Shown here: positions 6,847-41,456 of the stretch, piece after piece
How positions within the stretch are numbered: the first letter of the stretch is position 1
Layout: every line of letters starts with the position of its first letter
From: Jiella endophytica
GTDB taxonomy: Bacteria > Pseudomonadota > Alphaproteobacteria > Rhizobiales > Rhizobiaceae
Assembly (NCBI RefSeq): GCF_004519335.1
Contig: NZ_SOZD01000007.1
Location: forward strand, 62,001 to 126,000
Reading direction: 5' to 3'
Length of the DNA: 64,000 nucleotides
Notes under the pieces: model-generated
What the model saw: the letters and a program-made list of their open reading frames with translations, nothing else
Database searches by the model: none
Told to the model about the DNA's origin: nothing
Made by a program: the position numbers and the translations under genes

Positions 6847-6891
6847 CGCGGCGTGTTACGCCAGACCTTTCCCGGATGCAAAAGGTCAGGC

Positions 6892-24039: not shown

Positions 24040-24071
24040 CAGCAGATCGCCCCTTCCGAAAGCGGAACCTT

Positions 24072-24938
24072 ATGGAAATCATCCTCTCGCAAGCCGCCAA
24101 CGGCGTCGTGCTGGGAGTGATCTACATCCTGATCTCGGTCGGGCTGTCGATCACCTTCGGCATGCTCGGCATCATCAATTTCGCCCACGGGGCGTTCTTC
24201 GCCCTCGGCGCCTATTTTTCCTATGAGCTCGCCAGCCGCTTCGGATGGAGCGCGGCGATCGCGGCTCCGCTTCTGGCCGCGGCCATCGGAATGCTCGTCG
24301 AGGTCGTCCTGATCCGCCGTCTCTACGGCAAGGAACCGCTGCTCAGCCTCGTCGTCACCTTCGCCCTCGCTCTGCTGATCGAGGCGGTGATCCGCTCGGT
24401 CTGGGGCACCGGCGGACGGCCGCTCTCGCCGCCGGCGATCTTCAATGGCATCGTCGAGATCGGCCCGATCCTGATGACCACCTACCGCTTTGCGGTGCTC
24501 GTCATTACCGTCGCCGTCCTGCTTGCGCTGTGGGCCTTCCTGGCGCTGACGCCCTATGGCCGGGTGATCCGCGCCGGCAGCCGGGATCCGGAGATGGTCG
24601 ACATGCTCGGCATCAACCTGCCGCGCGTCTTCACCGCCGTCTTCGGCCTCGGCTGCGGCATTGCCGCGATCGCCGGCGTTCTCGCCGGGCCGCTCTGGAC
24701 GGTGTCTCCCTCGATGGCCGCCAACGCCATCATGCCGGCCTTCGTCATCGTCGCCATCGGCGGGCTGGGGTCGTTCAGCGGGGCGGTGATCGCCGGGCTG
24801 TTCGTCGGCATCACCACGGCGCTGACCGTCCAGTTCTGGCCCGAGGCCTCCTCGGCGGCGATGTACGTCCTGATGCTGCTCATCCTCCTCGTACGCCCGC
24901 GCGGTCTGCTCGGCACTCAGTGGGAACGTTTCGAATGA
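24072..24938 (+). CDS. Liv-type ABC transporter permease LivH (system 1)
   Basis: This 288-residue protein has about eight membrane segments. SITFGMLGIINFAHGAFFALGAY near the N terminus and the late loop FVIVAIGGLGSFSGAVIAGL are hallmarks of LivH permeases. It pairs with the LivM part of the following fusion protein. The ATG at 24072 begins MEIILSQAANG. The stop overlaps the start of the fusion gene (ATGA), indicating translational coupling. Confidence 0.93.
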   Translation: MEIILSQAANGVVLGVIYILISVGLSITFGMLGIINFAHGAFFALGAYFSYELASRFGWSAAIAAPLLAAAIGMLVEVVLIRRLYGKEPLLSLVVTFALALLIEAVIRSVWGTGGRPLSPPAIFNGIVEIGPILMTTYRFAVLVITVAVLLALWAFLALTPYGRVIRAGSRDPEMVDMLGINLPRVFTAVFGLGCGIAAIAGVLAGPLWTVSPSMAANAIMPAFVIVAIGGLGSFSGAVIAGLFVGITTALTVQFWPEASSAAMYVLMLLILLVRPRGLLGTQWERFE

Positions 24939-27445
24939 AGATGCCCGCAGTCTTGAAGCATCCGGTGCTGGTCAGCACGCTGGTGCTGCTCGCCCTGAGC
25001 CTGTTCACGCTCTGGGAGGGTGACGCGATCACCTACACCACCAAGATCACCATCTACGTCCTCTATGCCATGGGCGTGAATCTGATGATCGGCTATATCG
25101 GCCTGGTGCCGTTCGGCGCGTCCGTGTTCTTCGGATGCGCTAGCTACGCGGTGGCGATTTCGCTTTTCGGACCGGTCGTCAACAACGAGATCGTCGCGCT
25201 GCTGTTCGCCGCCGCCTTCTCGCTCGTCGCGGCGGTCCTCCTTGGCGCCGTCATCCTGCACCGCACCGGGGTCTATTTCGCCCTCATCACCCTCGCTCTG
25301 TCGCAGGTTGGCTACGAGGTCGCCTTCCAGTGGACGGACCTGACCGGCGGCGAGAACGGCATCCAGGGCGTGCCCCGCCCGCTCTTCACCGATGCCCTGT
25401 CGTTCCACTGGTTCACCGTCGCGCTGGTGATCCTGCTGATCGCCGGCATGTGGCGGCTGGCGCACATCCCGTTCGGCCGGACGATGCAGGCGGTGCGCGA
25501 CAACGAACAGCGCGCCATGACCCTCGGCTACAACACCTTCGCGATCAAGTGGATCGGATTTGCCATCGGCGCCACCATCGTCGGCATCGCCGGCGGCCTG
25601 CTCGCGCTTCTCTTGCAGGGCGCCTATGCCGACAACATGAACTGGCAGCGCGCCGGCGATCCGGTGCTGATGGCGGCCCTTGGAGGCGTACATCATTTCC
25701 TCGGACCGCTGTGGGGCGCCATCACGTTCCTGCTGCTCGAGGAGCAGCTGAGCGTCATCACCGACAACTGGTGGCTCTATTTCGCGCCGATCATCATCAT
25801 CTTCGCGATCCTGTCGCCGGAGGGGATGCAGGGCATCTTCCTGAAGCTCTTCAAGCGCGACCACTGGACGCTGACCCGCAACACGGTCCCGCCGATGCCG
25901 TCCAGCATCCAGCCCTTCACCGCACGGACCGGCGAAAGCCGCGAGGCAGGCGCCGCCGTGCTGGAGGTCCGCAAGCTGTCGAAGTCGTTCGGCTCGATCG
26001 TCACCCAGAAGGACATCTCCCTGGCGTTTCACGAGCGCACGCTGCACAGCGTGATCGGCCCGAACGGCGCCGGCAAGACGACGTTCTTCAACCTCCTGAC
26101 CGGGCTCCAGCGACCGGACGGCGGCCAGATCCTCTTCCGCGGCAAGGACATCACCGCCCTTTCGACCCACAAGCGGGCGCGGCTCGGCATCGCCCGGTCC
26201 TTCCAGATCATCAGCGTCTTTCCCAACCTGACGGCCTTCGAGAACGTGCGGATGGCGGTGCAGGCCGGCCGCAAGGGTACCATCGCCTTCTGGCGCGACG
26301 CCCATAGCGATGCCGCGATCTGCGAGGAGACCTGGTCCATCCTCGACGCGGTCGGCCTTCTCGACCGCGCCTCCAGGCCCTGCACCGAACTGCCGCATGG
26401 CGAGATCCGGCTTCTCGAGATCGCCGTCACTTTGGCAGGCAAGGCGGAGATCCTGCTTCTCGACGAGCCTCTGGCAGGCCTTGGCGAGAGCGACCGCATC
26501 GTCGTGTCCGACCTGATCAAGAAGCTCTCGACCACCCATCCGGTGGTGCTGATCGAACACGACATCGACCGTGTGATCGCGATGTCCGACCGCATCACCG
26601 TGCTCCACGAAGGGCGGCTGATCGCCGATGGCGAGCCGGCGCGAGTCGCCCGGGACCCGGCGGTGATCGAGGCCTATATGGGCAGCGGCAGTTCCGAAAC
26701 GGTGCCGGCGGGATCGGCCAAGGCCGCAAGCACCGATCGAACGGCGGCCGAACCGCTGCTCGAACTCAAGGACGTCAGCGCCGGCTATGGCGGGGGCACC
26801 GTTCTCGAGGGTGTCGACATGGTCATCCGCGAAAACCAGGTGGTCGCCCTGCTCGGCCGCAACGGCGTCGGCAAGACGACGACCCTGAAGACCATCATGG
26901 GCACGATCCACCCCAAGCGCGGGCAGATCCTCTTCGGCGGCCGGGACATCGGCAATCTGCGGCCTGACCTCATCAACCGCGCCGGCATTTCCATCGTGCC
27001 GGAAGGACGCCGGCTGTTCCCGAACCTCACGGTCAACGAGAACCTCGCATTGGCCGCGCGCAGCGGCGGTGCGAGCCTCGAGGAAATCCACGACCTGTTC
27101 CCCAGGCTGCGCGTTCTGACCCGCTCCAAGGCGCAGAACCTTTCGGGCGGCGAGCGCCAGATGGTGGCGATCGCCCGTGCGCTGATGGTGCCGAGCCAGC
27201 TCATCCTTCTGGACGAGCCCTATGAGGGACTGGCGCCGGCCGTCGTGGCGGAGGTGAAGGCGGCGGTCCGCACGATCAGCACCCGCAGTTCGCTGCTGAT
27301 CGTCGAACACCATGCCGACGAGGTCATCGCCCTCGCCGACTGGGTCTACGTCCTCGTCAACGGCAAGGTCGCTTTCGATGGCGCGTCCGACGAACTCGCC
27401 GGCAATCCGACGCTGAAGGATCAGCTTCTCGGCATCGCCGCCTGA
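24935..27445 (+). CDS. Fused LivM permease - LivG ATPase - LivF ATPase (system 1)
   Basis: One uninterrupted frame of 836 residues. LivM occupies about residues 1-320 (NLMIGYIGLVPFG, DLTGGENGIQG). LivG spans about 342-590 with Walker A GPNGAGKTT near 374 and Walker B ILLLDEPLAGLG. LivF spans about 605-836 with GRNGVGKTT, NLSGGERQM and LILLDEPYEGLAP. These three are normally separate genes. The LivG signature reads LPHGE where LSYGQ/LSGGQ is usual. Short Ser/Ala/Pro-rich linkers join the domains. It overlaps livH by four bases. No frameshift or internal start site is evident. Confidence 0.93.
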   Translation: MKMPAVLKHPVLVSTLVLLALSLFTLWEGDAITYTTKITIYVLYAMGVNLMIGYIGLVPFGASVFFGCASYAVAISLFGPVVNNEIVALLFAAAFSLVAAVLLGAVILHRTGVYFALITLALSQVGYEVAFQWTDLTGGENGIQGVPRPLFTDALSFHWFTVALVILLIAGMWRLAHIPFGRTMQAVRDNEQRAMTLGYNTFAIKWIGFAIGATIVGIAGGLLALLLQGAYADNMNWQRAGDPVLMAALGGVHHFLGPLWGAITFLLLEEQLSVITDNWWLYFAPIIIIFAILSPEGMQGIFLKLFKRDHWTLTRNTVPPMPSSIQPFTARTGESREAGAAVLEVRKLSKSFGSIVTQKDISLAFHERTLHSVIGPNGAGKTTFFNLLTGLQRPDGGQILFRGKDITALSTHKRARLGIARSFQIISVFPNLTAFENVRMAVQAGRKGTIAFWRDAHSDAAICEETWSILDAVGLLDRASRPCTELPHGEIRLLEIAVTLAGKAEILLLDEPLAGLGESDRIVVSDLIKKLSTTHPVVLIEHDIDRVIAMSDRITVLHEGRLIADGEPARVARDPAVIEAYMGSGSSETVPAGSAKAASTDRTAAEPLLELKDVSAGYGGGTVLEGVDMVIRENQVVALLGRNGVGKTTTLKTIMGTIHPKRGQILFGGRDIGNLRPDLINRAGISIVPEGRRLFPNLTVNENLALAARSGGASLEEIHDLFPRLRVLTRSKAQNLSGGERQMVAIARALMVPSQLILLDEPYEGLAPAVVAEVKAAVRTISTRSSLLIVEHHADEVIALADWVYVLVNGKVAFDGASDELAGNPTLKDQLLGIAA

Positions 27446-27528
27446 CCGGGGGCGCACCCAGCCAACCCATACCGGCCGCATCCCGAAGAGGTTGCGACCG
27501 CCGAACGTAACGATCAGCGAAGACGGGC

Positions 27529-28440
27529 ATGATGACTGACAAGGGTTTCGTACTGGTCACGGGGGCTGCGGGCCTGCTCGGCCGCCATATCGTCAGGGAC
27601 CTGACGGAGGCCGGCTACCGGGTCAGGGGATTCGACCTCGGCGTCGGCCCCGAACCCTGCGAATGGATGGTCGGCGACGTCACGTCCGCCGCCGATGTCG
27701 CTGCGGCCGTCGACGGGGTCGACGCGGTCATCCATGCCGCCGCCCGCGCCAATATCTGGAGCGGCTCGGGCGAGGAGATCATGCAGACCAACGTGATGGG
27801 CACCTGGCAGGTGTTCGAGGCGGCCCGCAAGGCGGGGATCGGCAACGTCATCTTCTGCTCCAGCGATTCCGTTGTCGGCTACACCGTGCGCGAAGGCGCG
27901 ATGGTGCCGCCGCGCTACATGCCGGTCGATCTCGATCATCCGCTGCAGGCGACGGATCCCTATGCGCTGAGCAAGATCATCGGCGAGGACATCGCGCGCT
28001 CTTACACCCATTGGGGCATGAGCGTGGTGGCCCTTCGCACCGTCTTCGTCGCCTATCCGGAGATGGAGGGGGAGATCCGCGCCCGCCACGCCGACCCGCA
28101 GGCCTACAAGGGCACCCCGGCCGGGGGACCGTCCAGCGCAGGCGGCGGGGCCTTCTACAACTATATCGAGCCGCGCGACCTCGCGCGGGCGTTCCGCCTC
28201 GCTTTGGAGCGGCCGGTCAATCCTGGCGAATTCCGCGCCTATTTCATCGCCAATGCCGAGACGCTGTCGCCGGAACCGACCCTGGAACGGGCACGGCGCC
28301 TGCATGGCGACGCGATCGCGGTCCGCGATCCCGCGCTCTACCGGAACAGGCCGTTCGCCAGCCTCTACGACACAGAACTGGCCGCGCGCGACCTTGGCTT
28401 CGTCGCCCGGAACAGCCTGCGGCATCTGGTCGAGGAATGA
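27529..28440 (+). CDS. NAD-dependent epimerase/dehydratase family protein (first)
   Basis: This 303-residue extended SDR has the nucleotide motif TGAAGLLG at the N terminus, the VIHAAARAN segment, an SSDS catalytic Ser region and the YALSK active-site Tyr/Lys pair. The C-terminal substrate part has a Gly-rich insertion (GGPSSAGGGAF). Related proteins oxidise, epimerise or reduce sugar-nucleotides, uronates or hydroxy acids; the substrate is unknown. It starts 83 bases after the transporter fusion gene and is followed closely by a second member. Starts at 27529 and 27532 are both possible. Confidence 0.85.
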   Translation: MMTDKGFVLVTGAAGLLGRHIVRDLTEAGYRVRGFDLGVGPEPCEWMVGDVTSAADVAAAVDGVDAVIHAAARANIWSGSGEEIMQTNVMGTWQVFEAARKAGIGNVIFCSSDSVVGYTVREGAMVPPRYMPVDLDHPLQATDPYALSKIIGEDIARSYTHWGMSVVALRTVFVAYPEMEGEIRARHADPQAYKGTPAGGPSSAGGGAFYNYIEPRDLARAFRLALERPVNPGEFRAYFIANAETLSPEPTLERARRLHGDAIAVRDPALYRNRPFASLYDTELAARDLGFVARNSLRHLVEE

Positions 28441-28483
28441 TGCGTCCAGGACGGCTCCCGGCGCCAACGAAAGGAAGACGAGG

Positions 28484-29437
28484 ATGAAGACGATACTGGT
28501 GACCGGCGGTGCCGGCTGGCTCGGAGGCGCCATTGTCCGCAAACTCGTCGGGCGCGGCGACCGCGTGGTGGCGGCCGATCTGCGCTTTGGCCCCCAGGCC
28601 GAGGCGCTCGCCGCCGGCAATGCCAACCTCGTCAATGCGACCCTCGACCTGACCGATGGCGAAGAGGCGCGTCGCGTCATCGGCGAATACCGTCCGGATA
28701 CGGTAATTCACTGCGCGGCGATCGTCGGCGTCCTGCAATGCGCCGACGCGCCGGAACTGTCGATCCGGGTCAATGTCGGCGGCATGGCCAATCTTCTGGA
28801 GGCGATGCGACAGACCGGCGTGCGGCGCATGATCCATGTCTCGACCGAGGAGACATACGGCGACTTCGAGCGCCCGGTCATCGACGAGGACCACCCGCAA
28901 CGGCCGAAGAGCATCTACGGCCTGACCAAGCTCGCGGCGGAAAATCTCGGCCGGACCTTTGCCCGCAACCATGAAATGGAGTGTATCCATGTGCGGACCT
29001 GCTGGGTCTACGGTCCCGACCTGCCGCGTCCGAGAATGCCGAAGACCTATGTCGATGCCGCGCTCTCCGGCAAAGCGTTCCGGCAGGCGAGCGGCGGCGA
29101 TTTCGCCGTCGACCAGGTCCATATCGACGACACGGTCGACGGCATCGTGCTGGCCCTCGACAAAGCGGACCACCGTTTCGATACCTATCAGATCGCCACT
29201 GGCGAGGCCCCGACGCTCGGCGACGTCGCGGATATCGTCAACCGCGCGGTTCGGGGCGCCAGCGTCACCGTCGAGGCGGGGCCCTATTACCTGGACGACA
29301 AGATTCTCTCCGTCGGAAAGGGCGCGCTAAATATCGCCCGGGCCAAAGCCGAACTCGGCTTTAAGCCGCGCTTTCCCATCGAGCGGGGCATCAGGCTGCT
29401 GATCGACGAAGCGCGCAACAGCGCAGGGCGGCGCTAA
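28484..29437 (+). CDS. NAD-dependent epimerase/dehydratase family protein (second)
   Basis: This 317-residue extended SDR starts at the ATG following AAGGAAGACGAGG. It has TGGAGWLG for NAD(P) binding, VIHCAAIVGV, VSTEETYGD and the YGLTK catalytic pair. DQVHIDDTVDGI is the usual C-terminal substrate-domain motif of this family. It differs from the preceding member, so this is not a recent duplication. It ends four bases into the convergent LysR gene. Presumed cytoplasmic dehydrogenase or epimerase of the island. Confidence 0.87.
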   Translation: MKTILVTGGAGWLGGAIVRKLVGRGDRVVAADLRFGPQAEALAAGNANLVNATLDLTDGEEARRVIGEYRPDTVIHCAAIVGVLQCADAPELSIRVNVGGMANLLEAMRQTGVRRMIHVSTEETYGDFERPVIDEDHPQRPKSIYGLTKLAAENLGRTFARNHEMECIHVRTCWVYGPDLPRPRMPKTYVDAALSGKAFRQASGGDFAVDQVHIDDTVDGIVLALDKADHRFDTYQIATGEAPTLGDVADIVNRAVRGASVTVEAGPYYLDDKILSVGKGALNIARAKAELGFKPRFPIERGIRLLIDEARNSAGRR

Positions 29438-30399
29438 TGCTTCGGACGCGGCAAGACCTGACCGATGAAGGTGCAACCGGGCCAGGACCCGTCGGCCGTC
29501 AGGTCGTGGGACAGCTGGTTGATCTCGTCGACGACCACCCGGGCCGCCGGAAGATGGTCGGTGGCGGAAGAGCTGTAGAGATAGTTGACGCGGGTCAGCG
29601 AGACGTCGTTCACACGCAGGCATCGCCAGCGCGAGGCGAGGTCCATGCCATGAACCTTGATCGCCGCGCTCGGCTTGATCGTCGCGCCCATGCCGCGGGC
29701 GAGGCACTGCATCAGGACGGTCAGGGAATCGATCTCGGCGATCGGTGCGATGGTGATTTCCAGCCGCTCGAACTCCATGTCGATGCGCCGACGCAGACTG
29801 TGCTTGCTGCTGGGCAGGATCAGCGGCAGGCCGGCGATCTCGCGAAGCGAGACGCTCGTCGTCTCGAAGGGAAAATAGCGCTCGTCCATCGGCAGGACGA
29901 GGAACAGCTCCTCGCGCAGCAGCGCCTCGCAGGACCAGCCGGGGACCCCCTCCTGGGTGAACAAGACGGTGATGTCCAGATCGCCGGCACGGGCCTGCCG
30001 CTGAAGATCGCCGCTCAGACCCTCGACGAGATTCAGCTGGATGCCCGGCTGGCTTTCCCTCAGGCGTTCCGTCAGCGCCACGCCGATATTGGCCATGGTC
30101 GTCGGCGGCAGACCGAGGGTGACCAGCCCGGTGATGACGTCCTTGGTCTCCCGCGCCGAGGTCATCGCCTGTTCGATCTGGCGAAGGATGGTCTTGGCCT
30201 GGCGGTAGAGGATCCGGCCCGCGCTGGTCGGGCTGACGCCGCGGCTCGAGCGGATGAGGAGCGGCGTTCCGACGTCGTGCTCGAGGCGCGAGATCTGCTG
30301 GCTCAGAGCCGGCTGGGCGATGTTGAGGCTGCGGGACGCCTGCGAAAAGCTGGCACCCTCGATGATCTCCACGAGGTAGCGCATCTGGCGGACGTCCAT
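29434..30399 (-). CDS. LysR-family transcriptional regulator
   Basis: This 321-residue regulator starts MDVRQMRYLVEII. The N-terminal winged HTH contains ASFSQASRSLNIAQPALSQ, followed by the linker helix RQAKTILRQIEQAM and a type 2 periplasmic-binding-like effector domain (IQLNLVEGLSGDL, VLMQCLARGMG). An upstream in-frame ATG at 30462 would add 21 residues without similarity; 30399 fits LysR proteins best. It is divergent from the FAD oxidoreductase gene and is the only regulator in the island, so it probably controls it in response to the substrate or an intermediate. Its 3' end overlaps the second epimerase gene by four bases. Confidence 0.92.
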   Translation of the reverse strand: MDVRQMRYLVEIIEGASFSQASRSLNIAQPALSQQISRLEHDVGTPLLIRSSRGVSPTSAGRILYRQAKTILRQIEQAMTSARETKDVITGLVTLGLPPTTMANIGVALTERLRESQPGIQLNLVEGLSGDLQRQARAGDLDITVLFTQEGVPGWSCEALLREELFLVLPMDERYFPFETTSVSLREIAGLPLILPSSKHSLRRRIDMEFERLEITIAPIAEIDSLTVLMQCLARGMGATIKPSAAIKVHGMDLASRWRCLRVNDVSLTRVNYLYSSSATDHLPAARVVVDEINQLSHDLTADGSWPGCTFIGQVLPRPKH

Positions 30400-30628
30400 G
30401 AACCGCTCGGTGCGTCTGCCACCGCTGTCGGGCGCGTTGTCGACAACTGCATCCATGGCCACCGTAAATCACCCTTGTCCTGGAATGGAGCCGAGGATCG
30501 GGCGGAAGGCCGTATCGCCTTTGCGCGCCAACCGGACCGAAGCGGCGTCCGCGCCCGGCCGTACCGGGTGGAATACCGAAGTCACGCGGCTCAGACCGGC
30601 TATATCGCAGGAAGGGCGGACTTTGCCA
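30400..30628. promoter_or_regulatory. Divergent promoter region between LysR gene and FAD oxidoreductase gene
   Basis: LysR regulators usually bind the region between their own gene and a divergent target. This 229-base space is the obvious candidate. A short inverted repeat CGGAC...GTCCG is present near 30532-30552, but no clear T-N11-A palindrome was identified. Confidence 0.4.
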
Positions 30629-32350
30629 ATGCCGTTTGACCCCAAGCAGCGTCCGCCCCTCGATCGCGTTCGAGACGCGGACCTCATCATCCTCGGCAGT
30701 GGCGCGTCGGGGTTGACCGCCGCGCTGACCGCGCTTCTCGCCGGGTTGCGGGTCGTCGTCCTCGAAAAGGCGCCGCATTTCGGCGGCACCACCGCACGCT
30801 CTTCCGGTACCGCCTGGGTGCCGAACAACCGGATGATGCGCAACGAAGGCATCACTGGCGACGACGAACGGGCAGCCACCTATCTCGAAGGCCTGGTCGG
30901 CAATCGCGGTCCGCGCCGACCCTGGCAGGCCTTTCTCGACACGGCGCCGCGCATGCAGGCGGACCTTGCGGATCGGGCCGAGATCGCCTTCCGCCCGATG
31001 CCCGCTGCGCCGGACTACCGGCCGGAGATCGACGGGGCCGGCAGCGGCTGGCGGCCGCTCGAACCGCTGCCCTTCGACGGCCGCAAGCTTGGCGGTTACT
31101 TCGATCTCCTGGCGCCTCCCATTCCGGAACTGACGGTCTTCGGCGGGATGATGGTCACCCGCGCCGAGGCCGGTCAGCTGGTGCATGCGGAAAAGTCGCT
31201 GCGGGCGATGATGCTCGGTGCGCGTCTGACCGGCCGCTATGTCAGAGACCGGTTGAAATACAAACGCGGCACCCGCCTGGTCATGGGCAACGGGCTGGTG
31301 GCACGCCTGCTCCACGAGGTGCTGAAGCGGGGCGGGCTCGTCTACGAGGACGTCACCGTCACAGGCCTGAACACCGACGACGGCGAGGCCGTCACCGGCG
31401 TGTCATATCAGCGCGACGGCAAGGCCGGCGCGTTGAACGCCGCCCGCGGCGTCGTGCTGGCCGGCGGCGGCTATCCGTCGAGCCAGGCGTGGCGGGCTCG
31501 CGAACTGCCGACACCGACGCCGGACCATTCCCCGGCCGCGCCCTTTGCCTGCGGCACGACGATCGAACTCGCGCTGGCAATTGGAGCGACACTCGGCGCG
31601 CCCGGGCTCGACAACGGGCTCTGGTTCCCCTCGTCGCTGCGCAAGCGCGCAGATGGCAGCCTTGCCGTCTTCCCGCACATCGCCCTCGACCGGGCGAAGC
31701 CGGGCGGCATCATCGTCAATCAGCGGGGACGCCGTTTCGCCAACGAGGCGCTCTCCTATCACGATTTCGTCCGCGCGATGTACGCCGCGAACGACGACGA
31801 ACCCTGCATTCCCGCCTGGATCATCGGCGATCGCCGGTTCCTGCGGCGCTACGGGATGGGCATCATCCGCCCGCGCACGCCGTTCCTCAAACCTTATCTC
31901 GCTGACGGCTATCTGAAATACGGCGCGACGGTCGAGGAATTGGCGGCGAAGATCGACGTCCCGGCGGAGGAATTGCAAAAGACCATCCAGCGGTTCAACG
32001 GTTTCGTCCGCTCGGGCGTCGACGAAGATTTTTCGCGCGGCTCGACGATCTATCAGCGCTCGAACGGCGACCCGGCCCAGGAGCCGAACCCCTGCATCGG
32101 GACGGTCGGCGAGACGCAGCTCTACGCTGTCGAATTGCACCCGACCCCGCTCGGGACGAGCCGGGGCCTTTCGGCCTCGATCGACGGTGAGGTGCTCCGA
32201 GAGACCGGCGATCCCATTCCCGGCCTTTATGTGTGCGGCAACGACATGCAGTCCTGCTTTGCCGGAGAATATCCAGGTGCCGGGGCTCAGATCGGAATGG
32301 GAATGACGTTCGGCTGGCGGGTGGCGCGATGCACCGCCGACCGGACCTGA
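30629..32350 (+). CDS. FAD-dependent oxidoreductase (fumarate reductase/3-ketosteroid dehydrogenase-like)
   Basis: This 573-residue flavoprotein has the Rossmann FAD motif IILGSGASGLTAALTA (about 19-34), then LEKAPHFGGTTARSSG, typical of the flavocytochrome c/fumarate reductase and ketosteroid delta1-dehydrogenase superfamily. The C-terminal FAD contact is LYVCGNDMQSCFAGEYPGAG. LHPTPLGTSRGLSAS contains the usual substrate-side Arg region. No heme or signal peptide is seen, so it is cytoplasmic. It could introduce or reduce a C=C bond next to a carbonyl. It heads the plus-strand group with the TPP enzyme, cupin and aldehyde dehydrogenase, and is divergent from the LysR gene. Confidence 0.88.
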   Translation: MPFDPKQRPPLDRVRDADLIILGSGASGLTAALTALLAGLRVVVLEKAPHFGGTTARSSGTAWVPNNRMMRNEGITGDDERAATYLEGLVGNRGPRRPWQAFLDTAPRMQADLADRAEIAFRPMPAAPDYRPEIDGAGSGWRPLEPLPFDGRKLGGYFDLLAPPIPELTVFGGMMVTRAEAGQLVHAEKSLRAMMLGARLTGRYVRDRLKYKRGTRLVMGNGLVARLLHEVLKRGGLVYEDVTVTGLNTDDGEAVTGVSYQRDGKAGALNAARGVVLAGGGYPSSQAWRARELPTPTPDHSPAAPFACGTTIELALAIGATLGAPGLDNGLWFPSSLRKRADGSLAVFPHIALDRAKPGGIIVNQRGRRFANEALSYHDFVRAMYAANDDEPCIPAWIIGDRRFLRRYGMGIIRPRTPFLKPYLADGYLKYGATVEELAAKIDVPAEELQKTIQRFNGFVRSGVDEDFSRGSTIYQRSNGDPAQEPNPCIGTVGETQLYAVELHPTPLGTSRGLSASIDGEVLRETGDPIPGLYVCGNDMQSCFAGEYPGAGAQIGMGMTFGWRVARCTADRT

Positions 32351-32372
32351 AGACATCGAGAGGAGGTCTCAC

Positions 32373-34154
32373 ATGGCAATGCAAAAAGGTGGCCAATACA
32401 TCGCCGAGGCGTTGGTGCGCGAAGGGATACCCTACGTGTTCGGCGTTTGCGGCCACGGCACCGTCGGTCTGATCGACCATCTCTACGATGTGCGCGACGC
32501 GGTGAAGATGATCTCGCCGCGCCACGAGCAGACCGCCGTGCACATGGCCGACGGATACTTCCGCGTCTCGCACAAGGTCGCCGCGACGCTGACCTCGACC
32601 GGACCGGGCTCGGCCAACCAGATCATGGGCCTCGCCGTCGCCCAGACCGACAGCTCGGCGGTCCTCGCGATCACCGCCAACGTGCCGACCCAGCAGTTCA
32701 ATCGCGGCCCGTTCCAGGAGCTGAACCTGCACCATCAGGCCGATTTCAACAGCGTCATCCGGCCGGTGGTCAAACGCTCCTTCCAGCCGACCCGGCCGGA
32801 AATGCTGCCGCTGCAGATCCGCCAGGCCTGCGCGACGATGACCACCGGCCGGCCCGGCCCGGTCAATCTCGACATCCCCTACAACCTGTTCCAGGAAGAA
32901 GCCGACCTGACCCCCGAGGTGAAGGGCAGCGCGTTCGGTGAACGCCGGCCGGGCGCGAGCCCCGACGATGTCGCGAACGTCGTCGACCGGCTGCTCGCCG
33001 CAAAGCGCCCGGTCATCTTCGTCGGCCACGGCGTGACACTGTCAGAAGCATCGCGCGAACTGACCAGGCTCGCCCACTGGCTGAGCATTCCGGTGATCTC
33101 TTCGCCGAACGGCATGGGCACGATCGACATGGACGATCCGCTGTCGCTCGGCTTCATCGGCCGCAACGGCGCCTATCAGGCCAATCAGGCCGGCCGGCAC
33201 GCGGATCTGGTGCTGGCGATCGGCGCCCGCTTCGACGACCGCTCGGCCTCCAGCTGGAAACCCGGCTATTCCTGGAATTTCCCCCATACGGCGCTGGTCC
33301 ATGTCGACCTCGACCACGCCGAGATGACCCGCAACTACACGCCGGACCTGGCGATCCTCGCGGATGCCCGCACCTTCCTCACCCAGGTGATGAGCGAGCT
33401 GTCCGGGCGCGGTGTCGGCGAGGAACCCCGCCTTGCCGGCTGGCAAGAGCAGATCGGCAAATGGCGGCAGGAATGGAACGAGTTCCTGGCTCCCAACTGG
33501 GGGCAGCACGTCTCGCCGATCTCTCCCTATCGGATCGTCGAGGACTGCCTGAAGGTCATTCCGGAAAACGCCATCCTGTCCTTCGATTCCGGCGTCCATC
33601 ACAACTGGTACATGCAGTTCTGGAAGGCGCGCGGCCCGCAGAGCATGCTGAACACCTGGGGCTATTCCGGCATGGGCTTCGGGCCGAGCTCGATCCTCGG
33701 CGCCAAGCTCGCCGCGCCCGACCGTCCCTGCATCAGCGTCTGCGGCGATGGCGGCTTCACCATGGTGCCGCACGTTCTCTGCACGGCGGTCGAATACGAC
33801 ATCCCGGTGATCTGGGTGGTCTGGAACAACTTCGTCTGGGGCGCCATCCGCGACCTGCAATACGGCTATTTCGACGGCCGCGAATACGGCACCGGCTTCT
33901 ATCGCGGCGACAATGCCGAGCCCTATAACCCCGACTTCGCCGCCTGGGCGCGCGCTGCCGGCGTCGAGGGTTTCACCGTCACCCGGTCCGAGGATTTCGC
34001 GGGCGTCCTCGAAAACGCCATCGCCCTCAACAAGCCGGTGCTCATCGACGTCCATGTCGACGGGAATGTCCGCCCGCCGGCGACCGGCTCCTGGGAGCTG
34101 CCGCCGCTCACCCCGAAGGAACCGGCTTTCGGCAAGGCCTGGCAACCCGAATGA
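32373..34154 (+). CDS. Thiamine-diphosphate enzyme of the acetolactate synthase/2-oxoacid decarboxylase type
   Basis: This 593-residue protein has the three-domain layout of the family. The N-terminal PYR domain has SPRHEQTAVHMADGY with Glu52 as the cofactor-activating acid. A central domain resembles that of acetolactate synthase. The C-terminal PP domain has CGDGGFTMVPHVLCT ending in NN, the GDG...NN thiamine-diphosphate site, from about residue 456. It could decarboxylate a 2-oxoacid to an aldehyde or join two carbonyl compounds. No regulatory subunit gene is nearby, so it is unlikely to be the biosynthetic IlvB. GAGGAGG precedes the ATG. Aldehyde dehydrogenases in the island would take the product. 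Confidence 0.88.
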   Translation: MAMQKGGQYIAEALVREGIPYVFGVCGHGTVGLIDHLYDVRDAVKMISPRHEQTAVHMADGYFRVSHKVAATLTSTGPGSANQIMGLAVAQTDSSAVLAITANVPTQQFNRGPFQELNLHHQADFNSVIRPVVKRSFQPTRPEMLPLQIRQACATMTTGRPGPVNLDIPYNLFQEEADLTPEVKGSAFGERRPGASPDDVANVVDRLLAAKRPVIFVGHGVTLSEASRELTRLAHWLSIPVISSPNGMGTIDMDDPLSLGFIGRNGAYQANQAGRHADLVLAIGARFDDRSASSWKPGYSWNFPHTALVHVDLDHAEMTRNYTPDLAILADARTFLTQVMSELSGRGVGEEPRLAGWQEQIGKWRQEWNEFLAPNWGQHVSPISPYRIVEDCLKVIPENAILSFDSGVHHNWYMQFWKARGPQSMLNTWGYSGMGFGPSSILGAKLAAPDRPCISVCGDGGFTMVPHVLCTAVEYDIPVIWVVWNNFVWGAIRDLQYGYFDGREYGTGFYRGDNAEPYNPDFAAWARAAGVEGFTVTRSEDFAGVLENAIALNKPVLIDVHVDGNVRPPATGSWELPPLTPKEPAFGKAWQPE

Positions 34155-34173
34155 ACCGCAAGGAGACGAGACC

Positions 34174-34563
34174 ATGAGCGAAAGAGACACACCGGCAACG
34201 GTCGAACGGCGGACCGTCGTCCGCAACATTGCGGAGGTTCCGTGGCAGCAGTTTCCCGCCCATCACGGCGGGGCGCTGTCGAAGCCGCTGGCGCATCCGA
34301 CGACCACCGGCTCGCACCAACTCGACTACCGCATCTCGACCTATCAGCCGATGGCCTATGTCGAGCGCCACGTCCACGAGGTTCAGGAGCAGGTCTACCA
34401 CATCCTCGACGGCGAAGGGCTGATGGAGATCGACGACGAGAAGCGCGTGGTGCGCAAGAACGACGTGATCTTCCTGGCGCCCGGCACCTACCACAGCATC
34501 GTCAACACCGGGCTCGGGGATCTCACCTTCATCGTCGTGACGACCCCGATCAACGACATCTGA
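34174..34563 (+). CDS. Small cupin-domain protein
   Basis: This 129-residue single-domain cupin starts behind AAGGAGACGAGACC. Motif 1 is ERHVHEVQEQVYHILDGEG and motif 2 is PGTYHSIVNTG, supplying the His and Glu residues that bind a metal. Small cupins in catabolic clusters act as isomerases, dioxygenases or ring/enol-handling enzymes; this one cannot be placed further. It lies 19 bases after the thiamine-diphosphate enzyme, so the two are very likely co-transcribed. Confidence 0.86.
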   Translation: MSERDTPATVERRTVVRNIAEVPWQQFPAHHGGALSKPLAHPTTTGSHQLDYRISTYQPMAYVERHVHEVQEQVYHILDGEGLMEIDDEKRVVRKNDVIFLAPGTYHSIVNTGLGDLTFIVVTTPINDI

Positions 34564-34943
34564 GCCCGCTGGCGGCTCCTTCTTCGCAACAGAGGAAAGA
34601 GGGCCGCCGGTGAGATCGCACGCACCGGCACCGCTGCCGGAGGCCGACATAGCGGCGCTTCGTCCGGACTTCTCGGGCGGCAGATCCGGGGCCGCTGCAA
34701 CGGCCTCTCTGCGCCGGCAATATCGGCGCGGCAGGGCCGCCCGGCCATTCGCTATCGGGACGCTCGCCGCCCCGAGAGCCTAGAAAACAGACCGTTTTGC
34801 CGCTGGACCCTGGCCGGGTGACCCCCGCCTTCCCGGTGCAGGGAAGGTGCGTGCCGCGCGCAGGCCGGCGGCGAGTGCCCGTCGTGGCGCCGAGACCGGC
34901 TACGCCGGCGGACCGTCCAAGTCCGAGATCCGAAGAGAGAGCA
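34564..34943. other. Gap without recognised gene
   Basis: This 380-base stretch lies between the cupin and the first aldehyde dehydrogenase. I see no repeat copy, no terminator with a T-run and no supported small gene. It may hold a separate promoter for the aldehyde dehydrogenase. Confidence 0.45.
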
Positions 34944-36395
34944 ATGGCATATCCTTTTGAAACGACATCCGACGGCATCGCGACATGTCTCATGTTGCTC
35001 GACGGGGAATGGATCGGCGGCGAGGAGGACGGCTGCGAGGTGCTCGACAAGTTCACCCTCGAACCCGTCGCGCGGCTGCCCTCCTCCTCGCCCCGGCAGA
35101 TCGCCGCGATGCTGGACGTCGCCGCCGGGCGTTTCGAGGCGGACCAGCTCTCCGCCTTCGAGCGTGGCGAAATCCTCGACCGGGTCGCAGACCGGATCCT
35201 GGCTCAGGCGGATACCTTCCTCGAAGTGATGCAGATCGAGACCGGCTATACGACCTCGGACTGCCGCAACGAGATCAACCGCACCGTCGAGACCTATCGC
35301 CTGTCGGCCGAAGAGGCCCGGCGCCTCGCCGGCGAGGTGGTAGCGATCGCCGGTGCGAGGGGTCAGGCGAAGCGCACCGCCTATACGCTGCGCGTGCCTC
35401 TGGGCGTCGTCCTCGCCGTCACGCCCTTCAACGCGCCGATGAACACCGTGGCCCACAAGCTCGGCCCGGCACTTGCCGCCGGAAACACGGTGGTGCTGAA
35501 GCCGGCCAGCCAGACGCCGCGGACGGCGTGCCTGGTGGCGCAGACCTTTCTCGACGCAGGACTTCCGGCCGGCCATCTCCAGGTCTTCCACGGGTCAGGT
35601 CCCGCCGTTTCTGCGGCCCTGCGGGACGAACGCGTCCGATATGTCGCCTTCACCGGCTCGACCGGGGTCGGCCGAAAGATCCAGGAACAGGCCGGCCTGC
35701 GGCGAACGCAGATGGAACTCGGCTCGATCGCCTTCACGATCCTCGACAAGGACGCCGATCTCGAGCGCGCGGTGCCCAAGGCTATCGCCGCCGGTTATCG
35801 CAAGGCCGGCCAGGTCTGCACGTCGGTGCAGATCCTGCTGGTGCACGAAGACGTCGCGGACCTCGTCGCCACGCAAATGGCGAGGGGGGTCAAGGATCTC
35901 GTCTACGGCGATCCCAGCAAGGACGGCTGTGTCACCGGACCGCTGATCTCGCTGCAGGACGCCGAGCGGGTCGAAGGCTGGATCAAGGACGCGCTGAATG
36001 ATGGCGCCACCCTTCTTGCCGGCGGCACGCGGGAAAACGCGGTGGTGGCACCGACGCTGCTCTCCAACGTCACTCCGACCATGCGCGTCGGTTGCAACGA
36101 GATCTTCGGCCCGGTCGTCTGCATCGAGACCTTTCAGAATTTCGATGCCGCGATCGCCCGTGTGAATTCGACGCCCTACGGCCTCGCCACGGGGGTCTTC
36201 ACCAACCGTCTCGACCATGCGCTGCGCGCGACGCAGGCGCTGCGCGTCGGCGGCGTGCACATCAACGAGACCTCCTCGTCGCGGGCCGACATGATGCCCT
36301 ATGGCGGCTCGAAGGACAGCGGTTTCGGCCGCGAAGGGCCCGCCTATGCGATCAAGGAAATGACCGAAGAGCGGCTGGTGTCGTTCAGCTTCTGA
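34944..36395 (+). CDS. Aldehyde dehydrogenase family protein (first)
   Basis: This 483-residue NAD(P)-dependent enzyme has the family motifs: VTPFNAPMN for cofactor binding, TGSTGVGRKI, the Glu motif as MELGSIAF (ELGG is usual), and GQVCTS with the catalytic Cys at residue 292. EIFGPVVCIETF and PYGGSKDSGFGREG are conserved C-terminal segments. It oxidises an aldehyde to an acid; relatives include lactaldehyde and semialdehyde dehydrogenases. It is clearly paralogous to the enzyme at 41479-42942 and shares the same ELGS variant. The site before the ATG (AGAGAG) is weak. Confidence 0.92.
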   Translation: MAYPFETTSDGIATCLMLLDGEWIGGEEDGCEVLDKFTLEPVARLPSSSPRQIAAMLDVAAGRFEADQLSAFERGEILDRVADRILAQADTFLEVMQIETGYTTSDCRNEINRTVETYRLSAEEARRLAGEVVAIAGARGQAKRTAYTLRVPLGVVLAVTPFNAPMNTVAHKLGPALAAGNTVVLKPASQTPRTACLVAQTFLDAGLPAGHLQVFHGSGPAVSAALRDERVRYVAFTGSTGVGRKIQEQAGLRRTQMELGSIAFTILDKDADLERAVPKAIAAGYRKAGQVCTSVQILLVHEDVADLVATQMARGVKDLVYGDPSKDGCVTGPLISLQDAERVEGWIKDALNDGATLLAGGTRENAVVAPTLLSNVTPTMRVGCNEIFGPVVCIETFQNFDAAIARVNSTPYGLATGVFTNRLDHALRATQALRVGGVHINETSSSRADMMPYGGSKDSGFGREGPAYAIKEMTEERLVSFSF

Positions 36396-36520
36396 GCGGG
36401 AAGCTCGGGCAGGCCATACATTCTGCTTATAGCCTTCTGCTTTAATCATATTTCCGAATGGTCCGCGGCTTCCGTAGTCTCGCGCAATCGGTGGCAGACC
36501 GATCGCGCAAGCAACACGCC

Positions 36521-36625
36521 GCAGCATCGGCCCGGAAATCGGCATCGATTATCGGAACGCCCGATGCGGCGAGTCAGACAGTTGGAGCGTCCCCTTCTGC
36601 GTCCATTCGGACGCACGGCGCTCTA
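36521..36625 (+). repeat. Dispersed ~100-bp repeat, copy C
   Basis: It begins GCAGCATCGGCCCGGAAATC and ends with the TGCGTCC...GGACGCA palindrome. It is the most diverged of the three copies in its middle part. It lies between the first aldehyde dehydrogenase and the second substrate-binding protein, a 287-base gap with no gene. Confidence 0.75.
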
Positions 36626-36682
36626 TCGGCGCAGCCGCGGGCGACCGTGGGCTCTGCGCCCGCTTTGGGAGGAGCGGGACCT

Positions 36683-37933
36683 ATGAACCATACACCGAAG
36701 ACGATTTCCGGCGGGCTCACCCGCCGCGCCACGTTGCAGCTCGGCCTCGCCGGCGCCGCCACGCTCGGATTTCCGTCGATCGTCAGAGCACAGGGTGGAC
36801 CGATCAATGTCGGCCACCTGACGCCGAAGACCGGCTTTCTCGGTGCTCTCGGCGAATGGGCGACCCTCGGCATCCAGATGGCGGCCGAGGAGATCAACCA
36901 GGCCGGCGGCGTCAACGGCCGTCAGCTGAACATCATGTCGGAAGACAGCATCAACCCCGACACCGCTGCCACCAAAGCGCAGCGGATGCTGGAGCGCGAC
37001 AAGGCCGACTTCCTGATCGGCGAGATCAGCTCGGCCTCGGCGCTGGCGATTTCCCAGGTCGCGGCGCGGAACGAGAAGCTGTTCGTCGCCGTCGGCCCAC
37101 GCTCCGACGTGCTGCGCGGCGACAACTGCAGCAAGTACATGTTCTGCACCGACATTCCGAACACCGTCATGGTCAACGCCGTCGGTACGGCGCTGAAACG
37201 CGACGGCATGGTCGAAGGCAAGAAGTTCATGACGCTGACGGCGGATTACGTCTTCGGCCACGATCTTCTCAAGGCGGCCAAGGACTTCTTCGACCGCAAC
37301 GGCGCCGAACTCGTCGCCGACGAGCTGGTCGCCACCGACCTCACCGACTTCAGCCCGCTTCTGATCAAGATCCGCCAGACCAATCCCGACGTTGTCTGCC
37401 TCAACCTGGCGGGCAATCAGGTGACGAACTTCGTCAAGCAGTATTCCGAGTTCGGGCTGCCCTATCCGACGGTCGGCTTCAACCTGAACACGGCGGACGC
37501 CTGGGCCGCGGGCCTCGGCAATCTGCAAGGCACCTGGCCGACGGTCTGGTACCACACGCTGGAGACCCCGGAATCCAAGGCCTTCGTCGAGGCGTTCAAG
37601 GCGAAATACGACAAGATCCCGGAAAACCACGCCTGGATCTCGTACATCGCCCTGAAGATCATGGCCAAGAGCATCGGCGAGACCGGTTCGGCGGAAACGC
37701 CGGAACTGATCAAATATCTGGAATCGGGCGCCGAGTTCGACATTCTCAAGGCCCGCCCGGCGCATTTCCGGGCCTGGGACCATCAGCTGATCCAGGAAGC
37801 CTATTCGTTCACCGTCGATCCCGATGCCGAGGACGAATACGCGATGATCAAGCTCGGCGAGGCCGTTCCCGCCGCCGATGTCGACCTCGAGACGATCTAT
37901 CCCGACGAGAAGCAGAACAGCTGCAAGCTCTGA
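36683..37933 (+). CDS. Liv-type ABC transporter substrate-binding protein (system 2)
   Basis: This 416-residue periplasmic protein has a twin-arginine signal (LTRRATLQLGLAGAATLGF), unlike system 1 which has a Sec signal. The Peripla_BP_6 pattern is INVGHLTPKTGFLGALGEW, then MLERDKADFLIGEISSA. Cys149 (GDNCSKYMF) and Cys414 (NSCKL at the very end) match the cysteine pair of system 1, and both share a WDHQLI segment near the C terminus. GGGAGGA precedes the ATG. The two proteins are homologous but clearly different, so they probably bind different ligands. Confidence 0.92.
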   Translation: MNHTPKTISGGLTRRATLQLGLAGAATLGFPSIVRAQGGPINVGHLTPKTGFLGALGEWATLGIQMAAEEINQAGGVNGRQLNIMSEDSINPDTAATKAQRMLERDKADFLIGEISSASALAISQVAARNEKLFVAVGPRSDVLRGDNCSKYMFCTDIPNTVMVNAVGTALKRDGMVEGKKFMTLTADYVFGHDLLKAAKDFFDRNGAELVADELVATDLTDFSPLLIKIRQTNPDVVCLNLAGNQVTNFVKQYSEFGLPYPTVGFNLNTADAWAAGLGNLQGTWPTVWYHTLETPESKAFVEAFKAKYDKIPENHAWISYIALKIMAKSIGETGSAETPELIKYLESGAEFDILKARPAHFRAWDHQLIQEAYSFTVDPDAEDEYAMIKLGEAVPAADVDLETIYPDEKQNSCKL

Positions 37934-38046
37934 GGGTCGGAACCGCCGCCCCTGCCCCGGGGCGGCCGACGCACCATTCGCATCCCGGCTTTCTCGAAAG
38001 CAGGGCCGGGATGCCCTTCGACCCATCCCTCCCATTCGGCTGAACC

Positions 38047-38925
38047 ATGCAGATCGTCTTTCTGCTCGAACAGGTCGTCAACGGCCTCGTCCTCGGCGGC
38101 TACTATCTCCTGATCGCCCTCGGCCTGTCGCTGATCTTCAGCGTCGGCGGCATCGTCAATCTGGCACACGGGGCGTTCTACGCCCTCGGCGCCTATGTCT
38201 TCGTGACGCTCGTCGACACGGTCGGCTTCGCGCCGGCGGTGGCGGTTTCGCCGGTCGCCGTCGGCGTCCTCGGCATCCTGTTCGAGCGCTTCATCCTGAG
38301 GCGCTTCTATCGCGAGGACCCGATCCTCAGCCTGCTCGTCACCTTTGGGCTCGCCATGGTCGCCGAACAGGCGATCCGGATGATCTGGGGTGCCGCCCCG
38401 ATCCCCGCCACGATGCCGGCCGCCATGCGCGGCGCCGTCATCGTCGGGCCGTTCCTGTTTTCCCAGTACCGGCTGCTGATGATCGCGATCGTCGCTCTCA
38501 TCCTGCTCGGCATCTGGCTGCTTCTCAACAAGAGCGCCTTCGGCCGCGTGGTGCGGGCCGGGATCCAGAACCCCGACATGGTCGCCGCGCTCGGCATCCG
38601 GCTGCAGCCCTACATGACCAGCGTCATCGTCATCGGCGTCGCGATCGCGGCGCTCGCCGGCGCCCTCTTTGCCCCGATCACCATCGTCCATCCCGCCATG
38701 GGAGCGGAGATCATCACCGTCGCCTTCGTCGTCGTCATCATCGGCGGGCTCGGCAGCTTCTGGGGCGTCGTCCTCGCCGCCCTCCTCGTCGGCGTCGTGC
38801 GCGGCGTCACGATCCATTTCCTGCCGGCAGCCGGCGAAGCGTCGATCTACGTCCTGATGTTCGTGGTTCTGCTGTTGCGCCCGCGCGGACTGCTCGGCGA
38901 GTCGATCGAGAAATTCGACAAATGA
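38047..38925 (+). CDS. Liv-type ABC transporter permease LivH (system 2)
   Basis: This 292-residue membrane protein has about eight spans. The motif LIFSVGGIVNLAHGAFYALGAYVF and the late VVIIGGLGSFWGVVLAALLVG loop identify LivH. It follows the system 2 binding protein by 113 bases. Its TGA overlaps the ATG of the fusion gene by four bases, exactly as in system 1. Confidence 0.94.
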   Translation: MQIVFLLEQVVNGLVLGGYYLLIALGLSLIFSVGGIVNLAHGAFYALGAYVFVTLVDTVGFAPAVAVSPVAVGVLGILFERFILRRFYREDPILSLLVTFGLAMVAEQAIRMIWGAAPIPATMPAAMRGAVIVGPFLFSQYRLLMIAIVALILLGIWLLLNKSAFGRVVRAGIQNPDMVAALGIRLQPYMTSVIVIGVAIAALAGALFAPITIVHPAMGAEIITVAFVVVIIGGLGSFWGVVLAALLVGVVRGVTIHFLPAAGEASIYVLMFVVLLLRPRGLLGESIEKFDK

Positions 38926-41456
38926 CCACCGCTCGCATCGACATCTATCGCCCTCTGCTGGTCGCGGCCGTGTCGCTGGTGGCGCTCCCCTTCGCCATGT
39001 CGCTGATCGGGCTCACCATCAATACGGCGACCGTCGTCGTCTTCCTGTCGATCGCCGTCCTCGGCCTCAACATGATGATGGGCTATACCGGCCTCGTCTC
39101 CTTCGGCCATGGGGCCTGGTTCGGCATCGGCGCCTATGCAGCCGCCATCGCCCAGCGCGAATGGTTCAGCGGCCAGATCATCCTCCCGCTGCTTTTCGCG
39201 GTCGTCTTCGTCGCGATCCTCTCCGCGGTGGTCGGCGCGCTGATGCTGCGGCGCCGCGGCGTCTATTTCGCCCTGATGACCCTTGCCCTGTCGGCGCTCA
39301 CCTACACGATCTCGTTCCGATGGACGGCGCTCACCGGCGGCGAGGACGGCCTCGGCAATCTTCAGCGCGGCAGTCTCGGCCCGATCCATCTCGCCGACCC
39401 GAAGGCCTATTACATCTTCGTGGCGCTGGTCGCGCTGATCGTCCTGTTCTGCCTGATCCGGGTCCTGCGCTCCCCCTTCGGCCACGTTCTCGTCGCCATC
39501 CGCGAGAACCAACAGCGGGCCACCTTCCAGGGCTACAAGGTCCAGCGCTACAAGCTCGGCGTCTTCGTCCTCTCCTCCGCCGTCACGGCGCTGGCCGGCG
39601 GCCTGTCGGGCTTCCAGCACTATCTGGTCACCGCCGAGGCGACCTCGGTCGAGATGTCCGGCGAGCTCCTCGCCATGGTCGTCATCGGAGGCATGCACAA
39701 CATCCTCGGACCGGCGATCGGCGTCGTCTTCTTCATCGTCTTCCGCGAGCTCTTCTCGATCTGGACCGGCGACTGGATGTTCTGGTTCGGGCTGATCTTC
39801 GTCGCCTTCGTCATGTACTCGCCGGGCGGGATCGTCGGCATCTGGTCGCTGGTGAGGAAGCGCTGGAAGCCGGAGCCCGAAGACAGCGCGGCGATGAGCC
39901 GGCGCAAGATCTACGAAGGCCTAGCCCTGCCGGCCTTCCTGCAGCCGGAACCCGTCGCCGGCACGGTTCTCGAAGTCGAAGGGGTATCCCGGCGCTTCGG
40001 CGGCATCCAGGCGGTCAGGGATTCCAGCCTGACGGTCAAGTCCGGCGAGATCCACGCTCTGATCGGACCGAACGGCGCCGGCAAGACGACGCTCTTCAAC
40101 CTGATCTCCGGACGCTTCCCGCCCCATGGCGGACGGGTGCGGCTGCATGGCCGGGAGATCCACAGGCTGCAGGCGGACGCCATCTGCCAGTCCGGGCTCG
40201 CCCGCTCATTCCAGATCACCAACCTCTTCGAGGGGCTGACGATCTACGAAAATCTCAGGCTGTCCGCGCAGGCGCGTCACCCGGGGCGCTTCAACGCGTG
40301 GCGGGACATCGACAGCTATGGCGCGATCCATTCCGATACCGTCGAGCTGATGAAATTCCTCGGCCTCGAGGGCATCGAGGACATCAAGGCCGGCGACCTC
40401 TCCTATGGTGGCCAGCGCCTCGTCGATCTTGGCATCGCGCTCGCCTCGCGGCCGAAGGTCCTGCTCCTGGACGAGCCGTTGGCAGGGCTTGCCGCGGCCG
40501 AACGCGAGCGTGTCTCGCGGCTGGTGACGACGGTGGCGGCGAACATTCCCGTCCTCATCGTCGAACACGACATCGACCGTGTCCTCGGCTTCTCCCAGAA
40601 CGTCACGGTGATGAACGAGGGCTCGGTCCTCGTCACCGGCTGCCCCGAGGCGATCCGGGCCGACCGGCGCGTCCAGGAAATCTATACCGGTACCGGAACG
40701 CCCCAGGTTACCGGCCGGGCAGCTGCCGGTTCGGCTCCCGCCGAACCGGTACTGAAGGTCGACAAGGTCAACACCTACTACGGCAAGTGCCATATCCTCG
40801 ACGACGCCTGCCTCGAGATCCGCAAGGGCGAGATCGTCGCGCTTCTCGGCCGCAACGGCGCCGGCAAGTCGACCTTCCTGAAGACGATCGCCGGGCTGGT
40901 CGCCGCCCGGTCCGGCTCGATCGACTTCGAGGGCCGGGAACTCGTCGGTCTCGATGCCCCTGCCATCGCGCGTCTCGGCGTCGGCTACGTGCCGCAGGGT
41001 CGCGGCCTGTTCGCCGGAATGAGCGTTGCCGACAATCTCAGCCTCGGCCGGCTCGCGCGCAGGACCGACGGGTCGGACGGCGTGGTGTGGAGCGAGGAGG
41101 AGATCCTTCAGATGTTCCCCCGCCTGAGGGAGCGCTACCGCTCCAGCGCCGATTTCCTGTCGGGCGGCGAGCAGCAGATGCTGGCGGTGGCGCGGGCCCT
41201 GTCGGGCAATTGCCGGCTGCTGCTTCTCGACGAGCCGTTCGAGGGGCTCGCACCCGCCGTGGTGGAAGAATTGTTCCGGGTCTTCGACCGGCTGCGCAGC
41301 AGGCTGCCGATCCTCATCGTCGAGCACAACCTCGATCTGGTGCTGGCTTTGGCCGACCGCGTCTTCGCGCTCGAACGCGGCACCGTCTTCCACGAGGGCC
41401 CGGCCGACGCGCTTCTCAACGACATCGACTACCGCAAGGAAATCCTGTGGCTCTGA
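38922..41456 (+). CDS. Fused LivM permease - LivG ATPase - LivF ATPase (system 2)
   Basis: One frame of 844 residues. LivM occupies about 1-325 (NMMMGYTGLVSFGHGAW, ALTGGEDGLGN). LivG spans about 348-590 with Walker A GPNGAGKTT, signature LSYGGQRLVDL and Walker B VLLLDEPLAGLAA. LivF spans about 607-844 with GRNGAGKST, FLSGGEQQM and LLLLDEPFEGLAP. Here all ATPase motifs are canonical, unlike the LivG part of system 1. It has the same three-domain order as the fusion at 24935-27445. Confidence 0.94.
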   Translation: MTTARIDIYRPLLVAAVSLVALPFAMSLIGLTINTATVVVFLSIAVLGLNMMMGYTGLVSFGHGAWFGIGAYAAAIAQREWFSGQIILPLLFAVVFVAILSAVVGALMLRRRGVYFALMTLALSALTYTISFRWTALTGGEDGLGNLQRGSLGPIHLADPKAYYIFVALVALIVLFCLIRVLRSPFGHVLVAIRENQQRATFQGYKVQRYKLGVFVLSSAVTALAGGLSGFQHYLVTAEATSVEMSGELLAMVVIGGMHNILGPAIGVVFFIVFRELFSIWTGDWMFWFGLIFVAFVMYSPGGIVGIWSLVRKRWKPEPEDSAAMSRRKIYEGLALPAFLQPEPVAGTVLEVEGVSRRFGGIQAVRDSSLTVKSGEIHALIGPNGAGKTTLFNLISGRFPPHGGRVRLHGREIHRLQADAICQSGLARSFQITNLFEGLTIYENLRLSAQARHPGRFNAWRDIDSYGAIHSDTVELMKFLGLEGIEDIKAGDLSYGGQRLVDLGIALASRPKVLLLDEPLAGLAAAERERVSRLVTTVAANIPVLIVEHDIDRVLGFSQNVTVMNEGSVLVTGCPEAIRADRRVQEIYTGTGTPQVTGRAAAGSAPAEPVLKVDKVNTYYGKCHILDDACLEIRKGEIVALLGRNGAGKSTFLKTIAGLVAARSGSIDFEGRELVGLDAPAIARLGVGYVPQGRGLFAGMSVADNLSLGRLARRTDGSDGVVWSEEEILQMFPRLRERYRSSADFLSGGEQQMLAVARALSGNCRLLLLDEPFEGLAPAVVEELFRVFDRLRSRLPILIVEHNLDLVLALADRVFALERGTVFHEGPADALLNDIDYRKEILWL

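Follow-up and report, generated by a model that had tools for sequence, protein, structure and literature searches.

The closest described counterparts of the two importers reported here are the Liv/HAAT importers, represented by LivKHMGF of E. coli, which we take to be 3.A.1.4. Five parts are alike, comprising a binding protein, two permeases of the BPD_transp_2 family, and ATPases of the LivG and LivF types. In contrast to E. coli LivKHMGF, the systems described here unite M, G, and F in a single chain, lie beside catabolic genes, and probably carry another substrate. An earlier note on this DNA had called such a three-part fusion uncommon. Novelty of the architecture is not supported, as RefSeq plasmid records already carry the label "branched-chain amino acid ABC transporter ATP-binding protein/permease." The first of our chains has 40 plasmid records in its listing, of which 21 have a single unbroken piece over at least 95% of the chain; 12 of these 21 pieces are annotated, ten of them under that name and the remaining two as "livG" and "ABC transporter." The hosts of the plasmid records with the fusion are Alphaproteobacteria and Betaproteobacteria. 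A literature search found no paper on a LivM-LivG-LivF triple fusion, and the passages of PMC2821768 and PMC3654945 found by term contain no description of one.

The window, i.e. the whole stretch of 64,000 nucleotides from Jiella endophytica that was analyzed, holds an island with two such fusions, termed A and B, whose gene order was obtained by comparing annotated relatives with the window:

22656..23873, plus strand, substrate-binding protein of system A (Peripla_BP_6)
24069..24938, plus strand, livH of system A (BPD_transp_2), with the start placed at MEIIL instead of the TTG that opens the mechanical ORF
24935..27445, plus strand, livM-livG-livF fusion A, 836 residues, frame open throughout
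27529..28440, plus strand, NAD-dependent epimerase/dehydrogenase-like protein 1, a neighbor of lineage A elsewhere
28484..29437, plus strand, NAD-dependent epimerase/dehydrogenase-like protein 2, a neighbor of lineage A elsewhere
29458..30399, minus strand, LysR-type regulator, 46-58% to annotated LysR proteins
30659..32350, plus strand, FAD-dependent dehydrogenase, ketosteroid-dehydrogenase-like, start position approximate
32373..34154, plus strand, thiamine-pyrophosphate (TPP) enzyme, acetolactate-synthase-like
34195..34563, plus strand, cupin protein, start position approximate
34944..36395, plus strand, aldehyde dehydrogenase 2
36683..37933, plus strand, substrate-binding protein of system B
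38047..38925, plus strand, livH of system B
38922..41456, plus strand, livM-livG-livF fusion B, 844 residues, frame open throughout
41479..42942, plus strand, aldehyde dehydrogenase 1
43029..43748, plus strand, short-chain dehydrogenase (SDR)

Each fused chain contains one BPD_transp_2 domain followed by two ABC_tran stretches in one frame (Pfam), and in both chains the first ATPase is of the LivG/UrtD type and the second of the LivF/UrtE type (NCBIfam). Walker A is present in all four ATPase domains, two sites per chain, and the remaining ATPase motifs are visible by direct reading of both translations. A Peripla_BP_6 substrate-binding protein is found beside each fused system, and in both systems the stop of livH overlaps the start of the fused gene by ATGA. 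The description in the earlier note, of M, G, and F joined twice within one island as a chain of about 840 residues with its Walker A sites and with an identical four-base livH overlap at both starts, was thereby confirmed. The overlap itself is an ordinary feature: among fused systems with livH in view, the two genes share an in-frame ATGA or GTGA in 17 of 17 cases in lineage A, 16 of 31 in lineage B, and 10 of 19 in lineage C (lineages defined below), and the same is true of 4 of 23 systems other than triple fusions. A quadruple fusion including LivH was considered and rejected; ORFs of 1066 and 1192 residues extend beyond the start of livM but stay in its frame, and livH lies in a different one. 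No similar chain was found when the PDB copy was searched with LivH of system A, and the PDB matches listed for the fused chain and the profile (best 60 of 125 and best 60 of 160) all fall within the ATPase part. From this anatomy, LivH together with the LivM-LivG-LivF chain would form a complete importer of two chains instead of four, with a dedicated LivH and a dedicated binding protein for each fused chain. The fusion had also been proposed to set the side, order, and ratio of the ATPases. This argument is weak: the M:G:F ratio is fixed at 1:1:1, but LivH remains separate, and the ATPases lie on the cytoplasmic side in every ABC importer, fused or not.

Both chains exceed the NCBIfam cut-offs for UrtD and UrtE, as would be expected of urea transporters (UrtABCDE), but each score was computed over a whole chain with both of its ATPase domains, and the LptB cut-off is exceeded as well, so that the scores carry little weight. 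In the NCBIfam scan for UrtA and UrtB, which covered system A, LivH reaches 195 where UrtB requires 250, and the binding protein reaches 93 where UrtA requires 493. The families shown for the 10 scanned proteins of the window include no urease, and the neighboring genes encode dehydrogenases and a TPP enzyme. We therefore regard urea transport as very unlikely. The equivalog cut-offs for E. coli LivG and LivF are reached by neither chain.

The possibility that separate genes had been joined artificially by sequencing or assembly error is excluded, because relatives with the fusion unbroken and at full length are present in numerous other genomes. Once duplicates and incomplete systems had been taken out, 93 of 137 systems remained, 68 of which are M-G-F fusions with intact frames, and 66 of these 68 come from other genomes or records. 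Intact relatives of chain B with 74% identity are present in G005 and G037, and as no point in favor of an error was found, its probability is practically nil. The frequency of the fusion was estimated with a profile (A1) built from eight fused chains, a match being counted when it began at or before model position 41, ended at or after position 820, and contained no stop. At least one uninterrupted full-length fusion is present in at least 36 of 249 genomes of the order (E 1e-130), at least 8 of 297 genomes of the family (E 1e-160), at least 13 of 385 genomes of the class (E 1e-170), and at least 24 of 398 genomes of the phylum (E 1e-130), in samples that overlap and include the genome of the window. 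These counts are lower bounds because two or three candidates were scored per genome. Within the genus, 3 of 10 genomes have the fusion (G000, G001, and G005) when the two chains are used as queries. Two uninterrupted fusions occur in 5 of the 36 fusion-bearing genomes of the order, including that of the window; in the other four a distance of more than 2 Mb separates the fusions, or they sit on different contigs, and among these 36 genomes only that of the window has them side by side. In the same genome, BPD_transp_2 matches at 49 places, which form 28 clusters when grouped by eye (21 pairs and 7 singles). Of these clusters 22 were read (20 stretches plus both window clusters, all apart from six with a single permease). 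Thirteen of the 22 are Liv-type systems with H, M, G, and F; two of the 13 are fused, both in the window, and the other 11 have M, G, and F in three different frames. The triple fusion is thus neither the common form nor unique. The earlier view of it as uncommon holds in that it is not the common form in the order or in this genome, and the alternative that it is the usual arrangement in the order was checked and does not apply; it does not hold if uncommon is read as unique. The fusion is a patchily spread old architecture rather than a curiosity of a single genome.

The 68 fusions split into three lineages, named only after the trees were inspected: A (18, including the first chain of the window), B (31, including the second chain), and C (19). 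One lineage A chain, in the metagenome assembly L036 (open frame 4110-7337), has a shortened LivF part and counts 785 residues when read from its ATGA. Other make-ups were seen among the systems examined, with LivM-LivG in one open frame at L009, L017, L019, L060, and L082, LivH-LivM fusions at L161 and L164 (Rhizobium sp. WYJ-E13 and Natrinema zhouii), and a LivG-LivF fusion at L165 (Thermus thermophilus). On concatenated M+G+F trees, A and B form one clade, with SH-aLRT support of 98.5 against 21 other rows and 97.6 against 28, the sample of unfused systems being limited, and the G-domain tree likewise joins A with B (94, a value under the star mark). The single-domain trees proposed in the earlier note for recognizing one fusion event thus agree in part, as the M-domain tree leaves one unfused row beside A and B and the F-domain tree separates A from B (support 91) with unfused rows between them. 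A single clade of A, B, and C is rejected (p-AU 1.6e-89), which means that the fusion arose repeatedly or arose once with later splitting; more than one origin is the likelier of the two. As judged from these trees, lineage C is separate from A and B, and A and B are probably two old lineages that share one fusion event. If the description of the two transporters as "independent" was meant to refer to their origin, it is not supported by the A+B clade. The F-domain tree, the rejection of the A+B+C clade, and the occurrence of other make-ups in the importer family (LivM-LivG, and H-M and G-F in named records) would all be compatible with separate fusion events in A and B, i.e. true convergence, which we nevertheless consider unlikely in view of the concatenated and G-domain trees. 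A further alternative is local duplication of one fused system within the island. The two systems are 11.5 kb apart, and the livH, fused-gene, and aldehyde dehydrogenase stretches align as direct repeats (60-79% over 101-300 nucleotides), as a duplication would predict. The two chains are just 39% identical to each other, compared with 69-70% between chain A and relatives in other genera and 74% between chain B and relatives in another species of the genus and in another family of the order. With the domain and concatenated trees also contradicting it, and with B loci free of A genes in the stretch read from three relatives (see below), local duplication appears highly improbable.

The segment between the permease and the first ATPase (M-G linker) is 32-38 residues long in A and 34-41 in B. 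Patterns written after inspection of the linkers distinguish the two lineages: R-x-x-[IVL]-P-x-x-P is present in 18 of 18 A chains and in none of B, and A-M-x-x-R in 31 of 31 B chains, in none of A, and in 1 of 19 C chains. The mean pairwise identity of the linker is 0.42 in A and B and 0.19 in C, compared with 0.63-0.68 for the domains of A and B. Shorter linkers and different neighbors were noted in lineage C at L134, L136-L141, L144, and L156. A separate LivG-LivF product from an internal start, for which the Met invariant in the B linker would serve, was considered and found no support from a Shine-Dalgarno signal, the anti-Shine-Dalgarno binding upstream of this ATG averaging -4.4 kcal/mol compared with -5.7 kcal/mol in synonymous shuffles (31 of 31 B rows). 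The absence of this signal makes a role of the Met at the protein level likelier. The clade-wide motifs, retained although the linker overall varies, are the one new structural hint. A linker motif could dock on the permease or on the partner ATPase and thereby keep the LivG-type ATPase in fixed register. That the linker is a working element that gives a two-chain importer built-in coupling, with two such importers placed around one catabolic pathway, is a tentative and rather doubtful proposal.

The neighborhoods of 51 loci were compared for eight types of protein: NAD-enzyme 1, NAD-enzyme 2, the FAD enzyme, the TPP enzyme, the cupin, either aldehyde dehydrogenase, and the SDR of the island, together with a TIM-barrel protein of Methylobacterium nodulans. 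A locus was scored as having the enzyme set when at least three of the eight types were found with at least 39% identity and 60% coverage, cut-offs that were chosen after seeing the table. The set is near 10 of 16 A loci, four of these ten being close kin (L033, L034, L036, and L038), and near 4 of 11 B loci. It is near none of the 9 C loci, none of the 11 unfused systems in the window's genome, and none of the 4 unfused systems on plasmids. The flanks available varied in length. Among the 13 of 27 A and B loci with fewer than three types, some stretches end at contig ends or have about 5 kb of flank, and the B locus of G005, scored as a miss, does hold the FAD, TPP, and cupin genes in a longer stretch. 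At lineage C locus L156, where the neighbors differ, a kynureninase gene was noted. Lineage A and B loci elsewhere are thus often accompanied by the same catabolic enzymes. The cupin, TPP enzyme, aldehyde dehydrogenase 1, and SDR of the window are closest to those of B loci, NAD-enzymes 1 and 2 were matched only at A loci among the loci tested, and the TIM-barrel protein has no match in the window. Three relatives, one of the same genus, have the order FAD-TPP-cupin-LysR-binding protein-LivH-MGF of type B and no A genes in the 19-19.5 kb read. The island therefore reads as a B locus with an adjoining A block, giving two fused importers with one catabolic enzyme set. Of the two halves, B was probably in place first at this site and the A block was added beside it, this direction being one that we infer.

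A tRNA-Ser(GGA) gene, a usual kind of insertion site, lies at 21956-22045, about 0.6 kb upstream of the first island gene. No 16S rRNA gene was found in the draft genome. A second copy of the tRNA end at the island's border was looked for; among direct repeats in 21900-45000 (exact seed of 14) none equals the tRNA sequence, in a search that a short or diverged copy would escape, and no integrase was found among the window ORFs scanned, which are part of all ORFs. An ATP-dependent DNA ligase gene (43885-45747, minus strand) directly follows the island. The aldehyde dehydrogenase genes flank the second importer, one on each side, and their DNA is 71-79% alike over 209 and 300 bases. A 32-base palindromic repeat is found at 23966-23997, before livH of system A, and at 36592-36623, before the binding protein of system B. 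It was considered as a shared control element and rejected, because it occurs at 76 places of the genome with at most 3 mismatches, compared with 0 for a reversed control, and is accordingly a dispersed REP-like palindromic repeat.

Both importers probably take up related organic compounds that feed a single breakdown pathway. The FAD enzyme resembles ketosteroid and oxocyclohexane-carboxylate dehydrogenases, and together with the neighboring TPP enzyme, aldehyde dehydrogenases, SDR, and cupin it suggests that an organic acid or a cyclic compound is degraded. Candidate imports are perhaps carboxylated alicyclic, aromatic, or sugar-acid compounds. The Liv name denotes a family and not a substrate, and the imported substrate is probably other than branched-chain amino acids. 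Taken together, it is likely that the fused chains are working Liv/HAAT half-transporters, as predicted from their anatomy, that A and B share one fusion, and that an A block beside a B locus serves one pathway. The link of two fused lineages to one recurring catabolic enzyme set provides a handle for substrate discovery in importers that databases call only branched-chain amino acid transporters, and the fused chain may be a convenient construct for structural work.

When compared with known systems, the chains of the window share the M-G-F order with RefSeq entries WP_203101472.1 (Skermanella rosea), WP_015934189.1 (M. nodulans), and WP_066111908.1 (Salipiger). The coding sequences of the RefSeq-labeled fusions are 2517-2580 bases long, a length like that of the window chains, and the M. 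nodulans example belongs to lineage A and those of Skermanella rosea and Salipiger to lineage B. The M. nodulans fusion is adjoined by the same enzyme set as in the window. Lineage C, e.g. QIE43126.1 of Rhodobacteraceae bacterium SC52, is also a single chain with the domain order of A and B; in contrast to these it lies outside the A+B clade, has a shorter and more variable M-G linker, and lacks the enzyme set at the loci tested. Sugar-type importers, presumably those of the RbsA type with two ATPase domains in one chain, resemble our systems in the fusion of the ATPases, but their permease is unfused and they belong to another subfamily; such fused ATPases are present in 6 of the 22 permease clusters read in the window's genome. 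The architecture is therefore already known. Whereas each of the RefSeq stretches opened has one fused importer, in the window two of them accompany a single enzyme set, and it is this pairing of two fused importers around one breakdown pathway that is unusual.
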